Source: a virus
DNA: 64,000 nucleotides
IMG/VR virus record: IMGVR_UViG_3300008259_003680
Span: 1 to 64,000 of that record
Reading direction: 5' to 3' (one strand)
The notes below the pieces were generated by a model, which saw only the letters and a list, made by a program, of their open reading frames with translations, was not told the DNA's origin and made no database searches. This document shows positions 36,867-61,108 of this stretch, piece by piece. Each line of letters opens with the position of its first letter. Positions within the stretch are counted from its first letter, which is position 1. A program made the position numbers and the translations under genes.

Positions 36867-37325
36867 TTATTTAAACTTACTTCTATCTCTTTTAACCCTT
36901 TTATCACTAAGTTCTTTATTTCTTGGGTTGTTACGCCATTTTGCGAATTCAGGTTCCCATTTTGAAACGTCATTATCAAAATCTTTTAAATATGGACCTT
37001 TAGATCTGATATCTTGATATTCCATTTCTTCTTCATCCGACCAAGAACCAAATTCTGGTGTAGTGTCTAGTGATGAATTTTTATGTTTAGTTCTAGACAT
37101 TTTATCACCTAATTCTTTGTATCTTGGATTGTTTTTCCATTTTTCAAATTCTGGTTCCCATTTTGAAATATCATTGTCAAAATCCTTTAAGTATGGCCCT
37201 TTTGATCTAATGTCGTCCCACTCAGATTGATCTTCATCAGTCCAAGATTCCTCCTCAGATTCTCTAATAACTCGTCTTACAATTCTTGTAAGATCTGATT
37301 CCGTTAATCTAATTATTTTTTTCAT
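36867..37325 (-). CDS. Duplicated-motif protein with basic N-terminal leader, 152 aa
   Basis: Function is unknown. The N-terminal 22 residues (KKIIRLTESDLTRIVRRVIRE) form a basic helix ending in Ile-Arg-Glu. The rest consists of two nearly identical units of about 50 aa (roughly residues 27-75 and 93-142), each with the core DIRSKGPYLKDFDND, then SKWEPEF, KW and NNPR. I have seen such KKIIRLTESDL leaders on unrelated small proteins of environmental T4-like phages; a capsid-targeting or propeptide role is a guess. It is followed by a strong terminator. The start lies in a divergent region shared with the SNF2 helicase gene, with a TATTTATA box at 37355-37362. Confidence 0.75.
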   Translation of the reverse strand: MKKIIRLTESDLTRIVRRVIRESEEESWTDEDQSEWDDIRSKGPYLKDFDNDISKWEPEFEKWKNNPRYKELGDKMSRTKHKNSSLDTTPEFGSWSDEEEMEYQDIRSKGPYLKDFDNDVSKWEPEFAKWRNNPRNKELSDKRVKRDRSKFK

Positions 37326-37421: not shown

Positions 37422-39185
37422 ATGGAAGAATTAATTTCAAAAACTCCAGAGACACGAGCCCTCCAATTACTTGATGAATATATTGGGTCAAACAACTATA
37501 TCCTAGCGTTAAAAAACAAAAAACAAAATAGTAAGTCATTCACACCAACAAGATCACAAGCTGAGTATATAATTAATTTCCACGGTAGAAATCCCAAGGT
37601 TGCCAAAAAATGGGTTAAATTGGATTCCTATTTTGGAAAAAAAATGATGGAAGATAAAATGTACACAAAAGAACCATCAGAAATATATGTTGAGAAGTTG
37701 TTGGTTGAAAAAGATAAGTCGTATCATATTTGGGGAAAAATATTCAGTGGTGAAACCTTACATGACTTCTGGATACCAAAATCCGCCATTATAAAGGACA
37801 ACGAAGTTAAAAATGTTGTTGTTGATTATTCCAAATATATTTCTAGACCACCAATGGAACATCAAAAGGTGGCAATTGAAAAACTGGTTGGTAATAAAAA
37901 GTATATTCTGGCGGACGACATGGGACTAGGTAAGTCAGCGTCAGCCGTGGTTGCGGTGTTAGAATCTGGGGCAAAAAAAATACTTATAATCTGTCCAGCA
38001 TCATTAAAACTAAACTGGGAAAGAGAAATAAGGATATATTCCGACAAATCAATTTTTATTTCGGAAGGTAAGAAATTTTCAACCGAGTACGATATTGTAA
38101 TCATAAATTATGATATTTTAAAAAACTTCCACGACATAAAAAACAAAGAAAATTCTGAAATATTAAAAGCCAATTTTGATTTGGTTATTATGGACGAAGC
38201 CCATATGATATCCAACCCCCAGGCGGCAAGAACCAAAATAGTAAATGATATCGCATCATCAATTGAACGTGTTTGGTTATTAACCGGAACCCCAATGACA
38301 TCCAGACCAATGAACTATTTCAACTTATTAAAACTTGTTGAATGTCCGGTATCGGTCAATTGGATGGCTTACGCAAAAAGATATTGTAATGGATTTCAAT
38401 TCAATGTTGGAAAGAAAAAAGTCTGGAATGTCACCGGTGCCTCAAACTTGGATGAACTAAGAGAAAGAACCCAATCACATATTTTAAGAAGGTTAAAAGA
38501 AGAAGTACTGGATTTGCCAGAAAAAATAATAACTCCAGTATATCTTAATTTAAAATCAAAAGAATATGAGGATATGATGGGTGAATATTATGATTGGTTT
38601 AATTCAAACAAAGAGGAATCATCATCACTTACCATTCAGTTTGGTAAATTAATGAAAGTAAGAAAGGTTATTGCGAATGAAAAAGTAAAATCAACAATTG
38701 AGTTGGCTGAAAATATAATTGAGCAAGAAAAAAAGGTAATTATATTCACAAACTTTACAGACACATTACAAGAAATTTATAATCATTTTGGAAAAAGTGC
38801 CGTATATTTGGATGGCTCCTGTTCCAAAAATCACCGTCAACAAGCCGTTGACCAATTCCAAACAAATGACAAAATTAAAGTGTTTGTTGGAAATTTAAAA
38901 GCCGCTGGGGCTGGAATCACATTAACGGCGGCCGAAGCTGTTATTATGAACGACCTTTCATTTGTTCCAGCAGAACATGCTCAAGCTGAAGATCGTTCAC
39001 ATAGAATCGGTCAAAAAAAATCAACATCAGTATATTACCCTTTATTCCAAAACTCAATTGAGGGTATGATTTATGACATCCTTGAAAGAAAGAAAAAAAT
39101 AATATCAACCGTTATGGGTGACAATCTAATGGACGAGGCTTCAGTTATTGAAGAAATGCTCAATCGGATTTCTGCTAGTAGGTGA
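37422..39185 (+). CDS. SNF2-family DNA helicase/translocase (SMARCAL1-like)
   Basis: This superfamily 2 ATPase probably remodels replication forks or anneals strands, the job UvsW does in T4, although it is of a different lineage. Motif I is DDMGLGKS (165-172), motif II is DEAH (258-261), motif III is LLTGTP, and the C-terminal RecA-like half has IIFTNFTDTL, YLDGSCS, GAGITLTAA and the SNF2 hallmark DRSHRIGQ. The length of 587 aa fits an N-terminal substrate-recognition region (1-140) plus the two-lobe motor, with no extra nuclease domain. It is the first gene of a plus-strand run that leads to the metallopeptidase-SOD and neck genes. Confidence 0.9.
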   Translation: MEELISKTPETRALQLLDEYIGSNNYILALKNKKQNSKSFTPTRSQAEYIINFHGRNPKVAKKWVKLDSYFGKKMMEDKMYTKEPSEIYVEKLLVEKDKSYHIWGKIFSGETLHDFWIPKSAIIKDNEVKNVVVDYSKYISRPPMEHQKVAIEKLVGNKKYILADDMGLGKSASAVVAVLESGAKKILIICPASLKLNWEREIRIYSDKSIFISEGKKFSTEYDIVIINYDILKNFHDIKNKENSEILKANFDLVIMDEAHMISNPQAARTKIVNDIASSIERVWLLTGTPMTSRPMNYFNLLKLVECPVSVNWMAYAKRYCNGFQFNVGKKKVWNVTGASNLDELRERTQSHILRRLKEEVLDLPEKIITPVYLNLKSKEYEDMMGEYYDWFNSNKEESSSLTIQFGKLMKVRKVIANEKVKSTIELAENIIEQEKKVIIFTNFTDTLQEIYNHFGKSAVYLDGSCSKNHRQQAVDQFQTNDKIKVFVGNLKAAGAGITLTAAEAVIMNDLSFVPAEHAQAEDRSHRIGQKKSTSVYYPLFQNSIEGMIYDILERKKKIISTVMGDNLMDEASVIEEMLNRISASR

Positions 39186-39193
39186 TATTTATA
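39186..39193 (+). promoter_or_regulatory. Candidate late-promoter box TATTTATA
   Basis: Sense-oriented box four bases before the ATG of the metallopeptidase-SOD gene. Confidence 0.35.
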
Positions 39194-39197
39194 TTAT

Positions 39198-40289
39198 ATG
39201 AATGTCAAAATAACTTATCACGACACCGTTTCAAAAGAAGAACAAAAATTAATTGAGGAGTTTATATCTTTTTTAAAAATAAAATATCCATTGGAAAAAG
39301 ATGTATTTATTGATTTTTTGAAAAAGAGAACAAGTGAAATGTCAACTGGTGGTAGAACCTCAACACATCATCTAAAAATTTTGGTTAAAGATAGACTAAA
39401 CCGAGATGTTCTTAGATCCTTAGTTCACGAATGGGTGCACGAATATCAAAGGACTGTATTGGGAAGAAAAAAAGGTCCGGAAATTGGTGGAAAAAACGAG
39501 GACGAAGCAAATGCTATTGCTGGACAAATGATGAAAAAGTTTGAAAAAACACATAAAGAAGAACTACCAAAAATTTATAAAAGTTTTTCCGAACAAATAA
39601 CAAAACTTGAGGAATCATTAAATATTGAATCATTTAATAACTCACAAATCATATCTGAAATAAAACAAGTCAGTGTTGAAAAATTACCGTATGAATATGA
39701 TTCACTTGAAAGTTTTATTGACCCAGAAACAATGGAAACACATTATACAAAACACTACAAGGGTTATGTTGAAAAACTAAATGTGGAACTTGAAAAAATA
39801 AAAGGGAAGGATTTGGATTTGGAGGAAATTGTAACAAATATATCAAAATTTAATACAACGATTAAAAATAATGGTGGTGGTGCGTTCAATCACGCTCTTT
39901 TTTGGAAAATGTTATCACCCAAAAAACAAACAATTAAAGATCCAATCAAAACAAAAATTGAAAAAACTTTTGGTTCGTTTGAAAAATTTAAAGATACGTT
40001 TGAAGAAGCCGCAAAGTCCAGATTTGGTTCCGGTTGGGTTTGGTTGATACTAACCGATAAAAATAGATTAAAGATTGTAACGACCGCAAATCAAGATAAC
40101 CCACTAATGAATTCAGAAAAAGAAAGGGGTTATCCGTTGTTGGGACTGGATGTTTGGGAACATGCATATTATTTAAAATACAAAAATAAAAGGGACAAAT
40201 ATGTGTCAAACTTTTGGAAAGTTGTAAATTGGGGTTTTGTAAATGACCAATACACAACCAGACTAGATATTCTAAAATTCAAACAATAA
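39198..40289 (+). CDS. Fusion of a zinc metallopeptidase-like domain and a Mn-type superoxide dismutase
   Basis: Residues 1-130 contain HEWVHE (77-82) and a downstream DEANAIAG with E103, the HExxH...E layout of small zinc metallopeptidases. After a charged linker (about 130-155), residues 160-363 form a complete Fe/Mn superoxide dismutase. It starts KLPYEYDSLESFI and has the four metal ligands H182, H232 (NHALFW), D318 and H322 (LDVWEHAYY). NNGGG before H232 and NQDNP (298-302) favour the manganese type. The SOD half would convert superoxide to peroxide. The gene sits between the SNF2 helicase and a neck-protein gene, with a TATTTATA box four bases before its ATG. I do not know this fusion from any characterised phage. 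Confidence 0.88.
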   Translation: MNVKITYHDTVSKEEQKLIEEFISFLKIKYPLEKDVFIDFLKKRTSEMSTGGRTSTHHLKILVKDRLNRDVLRSLVHEWVHEYQRTVLGRKKGPEIGGKNEDEANAIAGQMMKKFEKTHKEELPKIYKSFSEQITKLEESLNIESFNNSQIISEIKQVSVEKLPYEYDSLESFIDPETMETHYTKHYKGYVEKLNVELEKIKGKDLDLEEIVTNISKFNTTIKNNGGGAFNHALFWKMLSPKKQTIKDPIKTKIEKTFGSFEKFKDTFEEAAKSRFGSGWVWLILTDKNRLKIVTTANQDNPLMNSEKERGYPLLGLDVWEHAYYLKYKNKRDKYVSNFWKVVNWGFVNDQYTTRLDILKFKQ

Positions 40290-40291
40290 GA

Positions 40292-40299
40292 TATTTATA
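40292..40299 (+). promoter_or_regulatory. Candidate late-promoter box TATTTATA
   Basis: Sense-oriented box 14 bases before the ATG of the neck protein gene. It lies directly after the stop codon of the SOD fusion gene, where a new start is plausible. Confidence 0.45.
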
Positions 40300-40313: not shown

Positions 40314-41432
40314 ATGTCAACTTCAATAATTACAGAACCACAAAGATCAAAATTATATAAAAGAATTAGAAATCTTTTGGGTGCACCACTAAGGGGTGTT
40401 GAGTTAGAGGATGAAATGATGGATTCATTGTTGGAACTTTCAATTCAAGATTATTCACAACACGTTAATGATTGGTTAATTGAATCTCAGTGGTCCTCAG
40501 TTTATGGTTTAAACCTTGATGAACAATCATTGACGAGAGCTTTTACAACCAGAAGTTTGGACTGGGAAACACAATATACGTATGCTTACTCAAAAATTGT
40601 TGGTTTACAAGCTGGTGGTGATTGGGTGTTAGAAAAAGATTATGTTGATTTAATTCCAGGTCAACAAATATATGAAATACCAGCAGGTAGAGAAATAAAT
40701 GAACTTTTATGGTTTGCAAGACCAGAATTAGATGCTGCTTATTTTGATCCATTTATGGGTGGATTTGGTGGGTTCGGTGGTATCGGACTTGGTGGTGGTG
40801 CCGGATTTTCTCAAATGGGAACTACCGGAAATTATTTCATCACGCCAGCTTCCGATATATTACTTAGAATGGCTGACATCCAAATGAAAAGGAGATTAAT
40901 TACCGGTGACTTAACATATAGAGTTACTGCACTTCCGGAAGGTAAAAAAGCCCTACATTTATACAACGTACCTGGTGGTAAGTTTGATTTTGGTAACATA
41001 CAAAGAAACCAATATAGAGTGTGGTATTGGTACTATAACACCTTTGACCGTGACGATTGTTTGGCTAAAAACCCAGATGTTGTTAGATTACCATCAGACG
41101 TTCCTATTGACGAAACGAGATGGGATGAATTAAATAGTCCAGCACAAACTTGGGTTAGAAGATGGTTTACAGCTTATTGTAAAGAAACCTTAGCCAGAGT
41201 TAGAGGTAAGTATAGTGGTAACTTAAAAACACCAGATTCTGAATTAACACTTGAATATCAAACACTACAATCTGAAGCCAAAGATGAAAAAGCCATGTTG
41301 TGGGAGGAATTAAAAACCAGACTTGAAAGATTGAGACCTGAAAAACAATGGGAAATCAAAGGTACTATGGCTGAAAATATGAATAAAGCTCTTAAATTTA
41401 GACCATTTAATAGCCCATATAATATCATATAA
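40314..41432 (+). CDS. Neck protein, gp13-like, 372 aa
   Basis: The N-terminus reads LYKRIRNLLGAPLRGVELEDEMMDSLLELSIQDYSQ, the pattern seen in gp13-type neck proteins of T4-like phages, where an RxLGxPxxxVELxDxxxxxxIxxA helix region opens the protein. A Gly/Phe-rich loop (about 145-170, FMGGFGGFGGIGLGGGAG) follows, then strands and an AYCKETLARVRGKYSG helix. The C-terminus is helical. A neck protein joins the portal to the tail. The adjacent genes on this strand are a small structural-looking protein and the SOD fusion, so late expression is likely. Assignment is by pattern, not by structure. Confidence 0.6.
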   Translation: MSTSIITEPQRSKLYKRIRNLLGAPLRGVELEDEMMDSLLELSIQDYSQHVNDWLIESQWSSVYGLNLDEQSLTRAFTTRSLDWETQYTYAYSKIVGLQAGGDWVLEKDYVDLIPGQQIYEIPAGREINELLWFARPELDAAYFDPFMGGFGGFGGIGLGGGAGFSQMGTTGNYFITPASDILLRMADIQMKRRLITGDLTYRVTALPEGKKALHLYNVPGGKFDFGNIQRNQYRVWYWYYNTFDRDDCLAKNPDVVRLPSDVPIDETRWDELNSPAQTWVRRWFTAYCKETLARVRGKYSGNLKTPDSELTLEYQTLQSEAKDEKAMLWEELKTRLERLRPEKQWEIKGTMAENMNKALKFRPFNSPYNII

Positions 41433-60422: not shown

Positions 60423-60716
60423 ATGGCAACACAAAATGACAAACTTGATTTTTCGCAACCAGATAATGAATTATCAAGAATTGCTGAAGAACAAAGAAAA
60501 AGATTGTTTCCAAGAAACGATTATAATCCAGCCGATCAATATTCAACAGTTCACCCAGACGCAATAGCAAATGGTGATGTTTTGGGTAGAGGAACTGGTG
60601 GTGATTTGGACGTTTACAACACAAATGCCGGAACAAGTACCGACAAACAAGAAAGGAAAGAAGATCTAAAAATTAACAAATACTCAACAAACAACCCATA
60701 TTTTTTACCAAAATGA
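60423..60716 (+). CDS. Hypothetical protein, 97 aa
   Basis: This short, polar, Asp/Asn-rich protein has a RIAEEQRKRLFPRNDYN segment and a C-terminal NKYSTNNPYFLPK. It is probably disordered and of unknown role. It overlaps the following WYL-like gene by four bases (ATGA type), so the genes from 59248 to 61710 appear to form one transcript ending in a terminator. Confidence 0.68.
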   Translation: MATQNDKLDFSQPDNELSRIAEEQRKRLFPRNDYNPADQYSTVHPDAIANGDVLGRGTGGDLDVYNTNAGTSTDKQERKEDLKINKYSTNNPYFLPK

Positions 60717-61108
60717 AACTTTTAAACTCATTAAAAACTCTATTAAATGAAGCCGTTTCTAATAATGAAGTAAAAGATTCCATTAGAAAGAAAAAGGTCG
60801 TGAACATTTATTATGATGGAAAGGATAACGGTGGAAAGGGTTATAGGACAATTGAACCGGTTTGTTTGGGTGTTTCAAAAAAGGGAAAATTAGTTTTAAG
60901 AGCTTGGGAAAGAGAAGGTTCATCTTATAGTGCACAAAATGAAGGAAATATCTTACCAGGTTGGAGGTTATTTAGATTGGATAAAATATTTACATATACA
61001 CCGACCTTAGATAACTTTACAGAAGCTAGACCACTTTATAACCCAAATGGTGATAAATCAATGATAACGGTCTACTTAAACGCCAAATTTAATGATAATA
61101 TAGCTTAA
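60713..61108 (+). CDS. WYL-like domain protein with short N-terminal leader, 131 aa
   Basis: After a leader (MKLLNSLKTLLNEAV, 1-15) the sequence shows a WYL-type beta domain: VVNIYYDG, then GYRTIEPVCLGV, KLVLRAWEREG and GWRLFRLDKIF. WYL domains bind nucleic acids or ligands in bacterial regulators and defence proteins, and occur without an attached helix-turn-helix in some phages. The leader Leu-Leu-Asn-Glu before Ala resembles a prohead-protease cleavage motif ([I/L]-x-E), so delivery inside the capsid is possible. That point is inference. It lies between the 97-aa and 199-aa genes in one operon. Confidence 0.65.
   Translation: MKLLNSLKTLLNEAVSNNEVKDSIRKKKVVNIYYDGKDNGGKGYRTIEPVCLGVSKKGKLVLRAWEREGSSYSAQNEGNILPGWRLFRLDKIFTYTPTLDNFTEARPLYNPNGDKSMITVYLNAKFNDNIA

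Follow-up and report, generated by a model that had tools for sequence, protein, structure and literature searches.

The gene at positions 39198-40289 (+) of the window (the 64,000-nucleotide stretch of viral DNA analysed here, from IMG/VR record IMGVR_UViG_3300008259_003680) encodes a 363-residue protein, hereafter pepSOD, in which a zincin domain is joined through a linker to a Mn-type superoxide dismutase (SOD). We consider that pepSOD is probably the precursor of a head-internal SOD of T4-like phages, which would be freed by the prohead protease and ejected into the host. SODs of phages are mostly recorded as isolated auxiliary metabolic genes; in this case a large phage group has an SOD as a conserved component, apparently produced together with the head and cleaved in the manner of an internal protein.

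The ORF call and its translation give one uninterrupted reading frame that occupies exactly these positions, with no internal stops. The N-terminal zincin (gluzincin-like) domain, delimited with AlphaFold, Foldseek and its invariant residues, comprises residues 1-123 (39198-39566, +), and is followed by a linker of residues 124-156 (39567-39665, +), in which residues 140-156 have a pLDDT below 50 and are predicted to be disordered. The Mn/Fe SOD domain, defined by Pfam, PDB matches and its metal ligands, spans residues 160-356 (39675-40265, +). A sequence-only reading of this DNA had described a HEWVHE domain followed by a complete Mn-type SOD in a single gene, and this description holds, with all four ligands and the NQDNP motif confirmed. 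The possibility it had raised, that two genes were joined by a frameshift or an assembly error, is refuted by 57 distinct full-length relatives with conserved catalytic residues and synteny; chance or artefact is excluded because the fusion is conserved across these relatives.

The SOD domain matches both Pfam models above the cut-off (Sod_Fe_N, 1.2e-23; Sod_Fe_C, 3.9e-42), and MnSODs of the PDB at E about 1e-60, with Sphingobacterium MnSODs (about 2e-60) as its best relatives there. The metal ligands H182, H232, D318 and H322 correspond to H26, H81, D167 and H171 of E. coli SodA, and the second-shell residues Y190, H186 and Q299, the latter inside NQDNP, are also present. In the alignment, ligands and second-shell residues are kept in at least 56 of the 57 distinct relatives. 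A C-terminal Gln together with Gly or Ala two residues before the Asp ligand indicates Mn preference (PMC10172142), and from Q299 and G316, which occupy these positions in pepSOD, the preferred metal is predicted to be Mn, with which the enzyme would dismutate superoxide. The domain shares with bacterial Mn-type Fe/Mn SODs (SodFM1-like) the fold, the four ligands, the Gln of NQDNP and the Gly two residues before Asp, and is 43-51% identical to bacterial MnSODs, but in contrast to these it is fused to a zincin or a tag and to C-terminal modules. In the phylogenetic tree the sister of the fusion SODs, within one clade, is the tagged SOD of a phage (L338, see below; support 99/100). Other Fe/Mn-SODs are likewise phage-encoded, in PA5oct-like Pseudomonas phages and Vibrio phage 2.275.O, but are only about 26-27% identical to pepSOD, over the SOD part, and leave the zincin half unmatched. 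SOD matches in Salmonella, Staphylococcus, Listeria and Enterococcus 'phage' records (H1-H9, H14) are ordinary bacterial SOD genes and were left out; these records appear to be contigs of bacteria that were deposited under phage names.

In the zincin domain, HEWVHE corresponds to residues 77-82, with HExxH at residues 77-81 (39426-39440), and the third predicted zinc ligand is E101 (39498-39500); the stretch NEDEAN lies 20 residues after HEWVHE. H77, E78, H81 and E101 are invariant in an alignment of 32 homologues, both fused and stand-alone. Modelled alone with AlphaFold, the domain reaches a pLDDT of 89 and a pTM of 0.85, with the elements E3-7 H13-29 E36-41 E51-53 E58-62 H68-86 H99-119. The model thus has the HExxH motif, a third ligand in the following helix and a three-stranded sheet with an N-terminal helix, the features that define a zincin. 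The same minimal topology, with HExxH and a Glu ligand in the next helix, is found in the Wss1/SprT zincins and the M78 peptidases. However, we claim membership in neither group, as the matches are weak: the best PDB fold match in Foldseek is Wss1 (5xbn, E 1.7e-3, TMq 0.63), the zincin profile matches Spartan at E 0.94, and M78 (ImmA/IrrE, PF06114) was rejected, with the window protein unmatched and cyanophage homologues at 13.0 and 19.5 bits against a cut-off of 22. Searches of Pfam and PHROG gave no confident family for the zincin. Homologues stand alone in cyanophages (L082, 5944-6342; L083, 5827-6201; L134-L222). One stand-alone type starts with MxYKQFLxES, a start resembling a T4-type capsid-targeting peptide, while the second type lies in a replication gene cluster and has no such tag. 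The zincin of pepSOD may act as a propeptide for targeting, as a second enzyme that is ejected, or as a protease that processes its own chain.

Fusions of this kind are numerous: a scan of IMG/VR revealed pepSOD relatives in at least 593 stretches, the best 80 of which, together with the window, provided the 57 distinct full-length sequences of the alignment, which keep the catalytic residues of both halves. pepSOD therefore represents a widespread conserved family of HExxH-SOD fusions and not a one-off. The combination had been described as unknown from characterised phages, and we agree: among 50,697 annotated phage records, 31 match pepSOD and none reaches 80% query coverage, so the fusion is absent from the annotated records searched. 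One scan of bacterial and archaeal genomes identified 30 SOD loci, none with the zincin half, and a bacterial origin of the complete fusion was rejected on this count. A search of the literature, mostly outside subscription journals, returned no report of the fusion or of a phage-encoded SOD in such a setting.

The gene order is conserved, and comprises an SNF2-type helicase, pepSOD, a neck protein, orf110 and a convergent DNA polymerase. The placement of pepSOD between a helicase and a neck gene had been read correctly on both sides. The upstream neighbour (37422-39185, +) is an SNF2-type DNA helicase (PF00176, 2.4e-29), syntenic in the relatives, and the downstream one (40314-41432, +) is a neck or head-completion protein, which matches phrog_211 ('head-tail adaptor Ad2', 2.4e-10) and also a 'putative head completion protein' of Flavobacterium phage immuto. 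A fusion of SOD and neck protein, considered for relatives of about 735 residues, was ruled out, as their neck gene is separate and downstream. The helicase ORFs of L003, L009, L028 and L060 contain an insert, probably an intein, that is several hundred residues long. Judged by capsid and neck proteins, Flavobacterium phage immuto and Rhodothermus phage RM378 are among the nearest relatives in culture, and the host of the pepSOD phages is therefore probably a member of the Bacteroidota. In Immutovirus-like relatives pepSOD is absent near the neck gene, and is therefore dispensable in that lineage.

The late-type box noted upstream of the gene is real: GATATTTATA, with a TATTTAT core, lies directly before pepSOD (39184-39193, +) and is conserved in relatives, and the same box precedes the neck gene (40290-40299). 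The T4 late promoter motif is TATAAATA, and the box, which reads TATTTATA in the direction of the gene, is its reverse complement and not the T4 motif itself. Of 52 distinct pepSOD loci, 51 have TATTTAT in the 45 nt upstream of the gene, as have 45 of 45 neck genes and all four genes each of gp21 and gp22, vs 9 of 27 helicase genes and none of 26 polB (DNA polymerase), 39 orf110 or 4 capsid genes, the motif having been first spotted in the window and then counted in relatives that are not independent of one another. The background is 12% of AT-rich 45-nt windows in the same loci. This distribution suggests that pepSOD is expressed late, like head genes.

A putative processing site lies immediately before the SOD. 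Residue 154 is Glu in 57 of 57 distinct proteins and position 152 has Ile or Leu in 56 of them and Val in one, whereas residue 153 is free. This is the sole conserved [L/I]-x-E of the whole protein, and the linker around it is variable except for E154 and K156. In the window protein it reads I-S-E (residues 152-154; 39651-39659, +), a putative cleavage site for a gp21-type prohead protease. Counted over all scans, in relatives that are not independent samples, [L/I/V]-x-E precedes the SOD in 114 of 116 distinct SOD ORFs, one of these 114 having V-x-E; only L338 and L350 depart from the pattern. The prohead protease of T4, gp21, cuts after L/I-X-E (PMC9026906). Homologues of gp21 (PF03420), gp22 and gp23 (PF07068) are carried by the relatives. 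Among 13 related records that were searched, none known to be complete, 5 have gp21/gp23 genes, and these genes were not seen in the window phage's own record, itself incomplete. The gp21 homologue aligns well, and the capsid protein of the relatives has LINE|A where T4 gp23 has FLTE|A, its cleavage site according to the literature. Against the cleavage model, P1' at the pepSOD site is mostly Met or Ile, in contrast to the Ala at the capsid site.

The same type of site persists where the zincin is missing. Six relatives (L386, L404, L405, L406, L408 and L417) have a short prefix before the SOD, ending in FITE, FLSE, ILSE, IIQE, ILKE or FLNE, and their SODs adjoin the same helicase and, contig permitting, the same neck gene. 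The SOD of L338, on a 222-kb viral contig, has an 11-residue tag, MNLKIVDILRE|G, in place of the zincin, and L350 has an SOD without a tag. The L338 SOD is identical to one on a 31.6-kb contig (L335-L336) binned in a Fluviicola MAG, and because of this identity the MAG contig is probably of phage origin, although binned with a bacterium; neither gp23 nor S77 was found in this MAG. Amphipathic tags ending in [I/L]xE start 11 of the 42 ORFs of the 31.6-kb contig vs 1 of 227 bacterial ORFs. T4 gp24, which is a gp21 substrate, is also found with this pattern. The pattern was written after the tags had been seen, so that the p-value of the comparison is no clean test, and the counts in bacteria and T4 are its controls. 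These tags are likely capsid-targeting propeptides.

At the other end of the protein, many relatives carry about 100 to 600 further residues after the SOD, while about half of the distinct SOD ORFs have no C-terminal cargo. We distinguished module A (L051, L073), module B (L046, L075), module C (L068), module D (L061) and module E (L404, L406, L408, L417), as well as the compound forms B+D (L405) and C+B (L080, L384). As judged from these sequences, the pepSOD locus is a variable platform, in which the SOD is constant, the zincin usually present and at least five types of C-terminal module interchangeable. Modules B and E have the E..D..QxK pattern of PD-(D/E)xK nucleases and module D a weaker version of it; in module E, E152, D185, Q198 and K200 are invariant in an alignment of four sequences. 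Several of the modules thus appear nuclease-like from their conserved residues. Modules A, B and D have no confident Pfam or PHROG family, and a PDB profile search with module E returned nothing meaningful. The junctions before the modules are tag-like, for example KKLTESINRLLVE|N and KKNLKENVDVKKILSE|A, and can be compared with MKKIIRLTESDLTRIVRRVIRE|S, the N-terminal [I/L]xE tag of another protein of the window (36867-37325, -), which is of the same type as the other tags predicted in the phage group. In L231, module A occurs in another chain, after a LETM1-like, hydrophobic stretch and once more with LLNE before it.

A different role for the enzyme would be that of an intracellular auxiliary SOD that is made late, stays unpackaged and protects the infected cell or phage assembly, with the zincin acting separately on a host or phage protein. 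The complete active site is in keeping with this role, as are the phage SODs that have neither zincin nor tag (PA5oct-like phages, L350), but it leaves unexplained the conserved [L/I]-x-E, the tags of the zincin-less relatives and the modules behind tag-like junctions, and we regard it as unlikely. In another route a polyvalent protein is delivered into the host and its zincin then cuts the linker, as the sequence-only reading had suggested, and the other junctions. Among the domains of polyvalent proteins, zincin-like metallopeptidases are the most frequent, and a part in the processing of these proteins has been proposed for them (PMC5512222). In the pepSOD zincin the predicted zinc-binding and catalytic residues are all conserved, and multi-module forms exist. 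However, the site is the same in forms without the zincin, it fits the motif of a separate gp21 protease of the phage group, and zincins also stand alone in cyanophages, which makes self-processing quite improbable. Finally, a constant SOD with varying C-terminal modules could be mainly a dimeric carrier or fold with which cargo modules are packaged, with catalysis secondary, but the conservation of catalytic and second-shell residues throughout, and the lack of cargo in about half of the distinct ORFs, make this highly improbable.

The preferred reading, a head-internal SOD released by the prohead protease, accommodates these observations as follows. The precursor would be made late, together with the head genes, and its N-terminal part (zincin and helical linker), or the short tag in the zincin-less relatives, would recruit it into the prohead core. 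A gp21-type protease would then cut after [L/I]-x-E, at E154, freeing the SOD, and in many relatives the C-terminal nuclease-like modules would also be freed, at further [L/I]-x-E junctions. The mature SOD would enter the cell with the DNA and remove superoxide at the start of infection. Protection from oxidative damage by the SOD is plausible. Delivery with the virion had been proposed in the sequence-only reading, and it gains sequence support from the gp21-type site, the tagged zincin-less relatives and the box shared with head genes; packaging, cleavage, ejection, SOD activity with Mn and the benefit to infection are inferred. A wider proposal, which we make tentatively and as a serious candidate, is that this group of T4-like phages injects SOD as a conserved head-internal platform, on which nuclease-like modules are exchangeable and are individually set free by the prohead protease; the whole would be a virion-borne antioxidant-plus-nuclease polyprotein.

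The closest known systems are the internal and ejected head proteins of T4 (IPI-III, Alt), which have a capsid-targeting prefix and are processed by gp21. pepSOD likewise has a prefix ending in L/I-x-E, a gp21-type protease in the phage group, predicted late expression and variable cargo. In contrast to the T4 proteins, its cargo is an SOD, which is conserved in the family while the extra modules vary, its prefix often includes a whole zincin, and its packaging is predicted. The polyvalent proteins of phages and conjugative elements also chain a zincin-like metallopeptidase to unrelated enzyme domains and are predicted to be delivered with DNA (Iyer et al. 2017, PMC5512222). The minimal topology described for their metallopeptidases is the one seen in the pepSOD zincin model, and superoxide is not mentioned in that paper (PMC5512222). 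A polyvalent protein has a zincin and at least two unrelated enzyme domains, whereas the window form has a zincin and SOD only, and its relatives add PD-(D/E)xK-like modules; in these T4-like phages the chain has a single SOD and a few modules at most. By analogy with both systems, SOD would be the new element, and its presence among T4-type internal or polyvalent proteins is unreported in the literature searched, mostly outside subscription journals.

If this reading is true, oxidative stress stands in the way of phages during the first minutes of infection, and they bear the cost of an injected enzyme to overcome it; the [L/I]-x-E tag would also provide a sequence rule for finding other ejected proteins, nuclease-like ones included, in uncultured T4-like phages. 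Amphipathic tags ending in [I/L]xE also start many unrelated proteins of these phages, in the window (36867-37325, -; 60713-61108, +) and in L097, L102, L335 and L336. The form of the tag in these phages is MKKIIRLTESDLxRIVKRVxxE and similar, and it can differ between orthologues of one body, as seen for L089 and L102.
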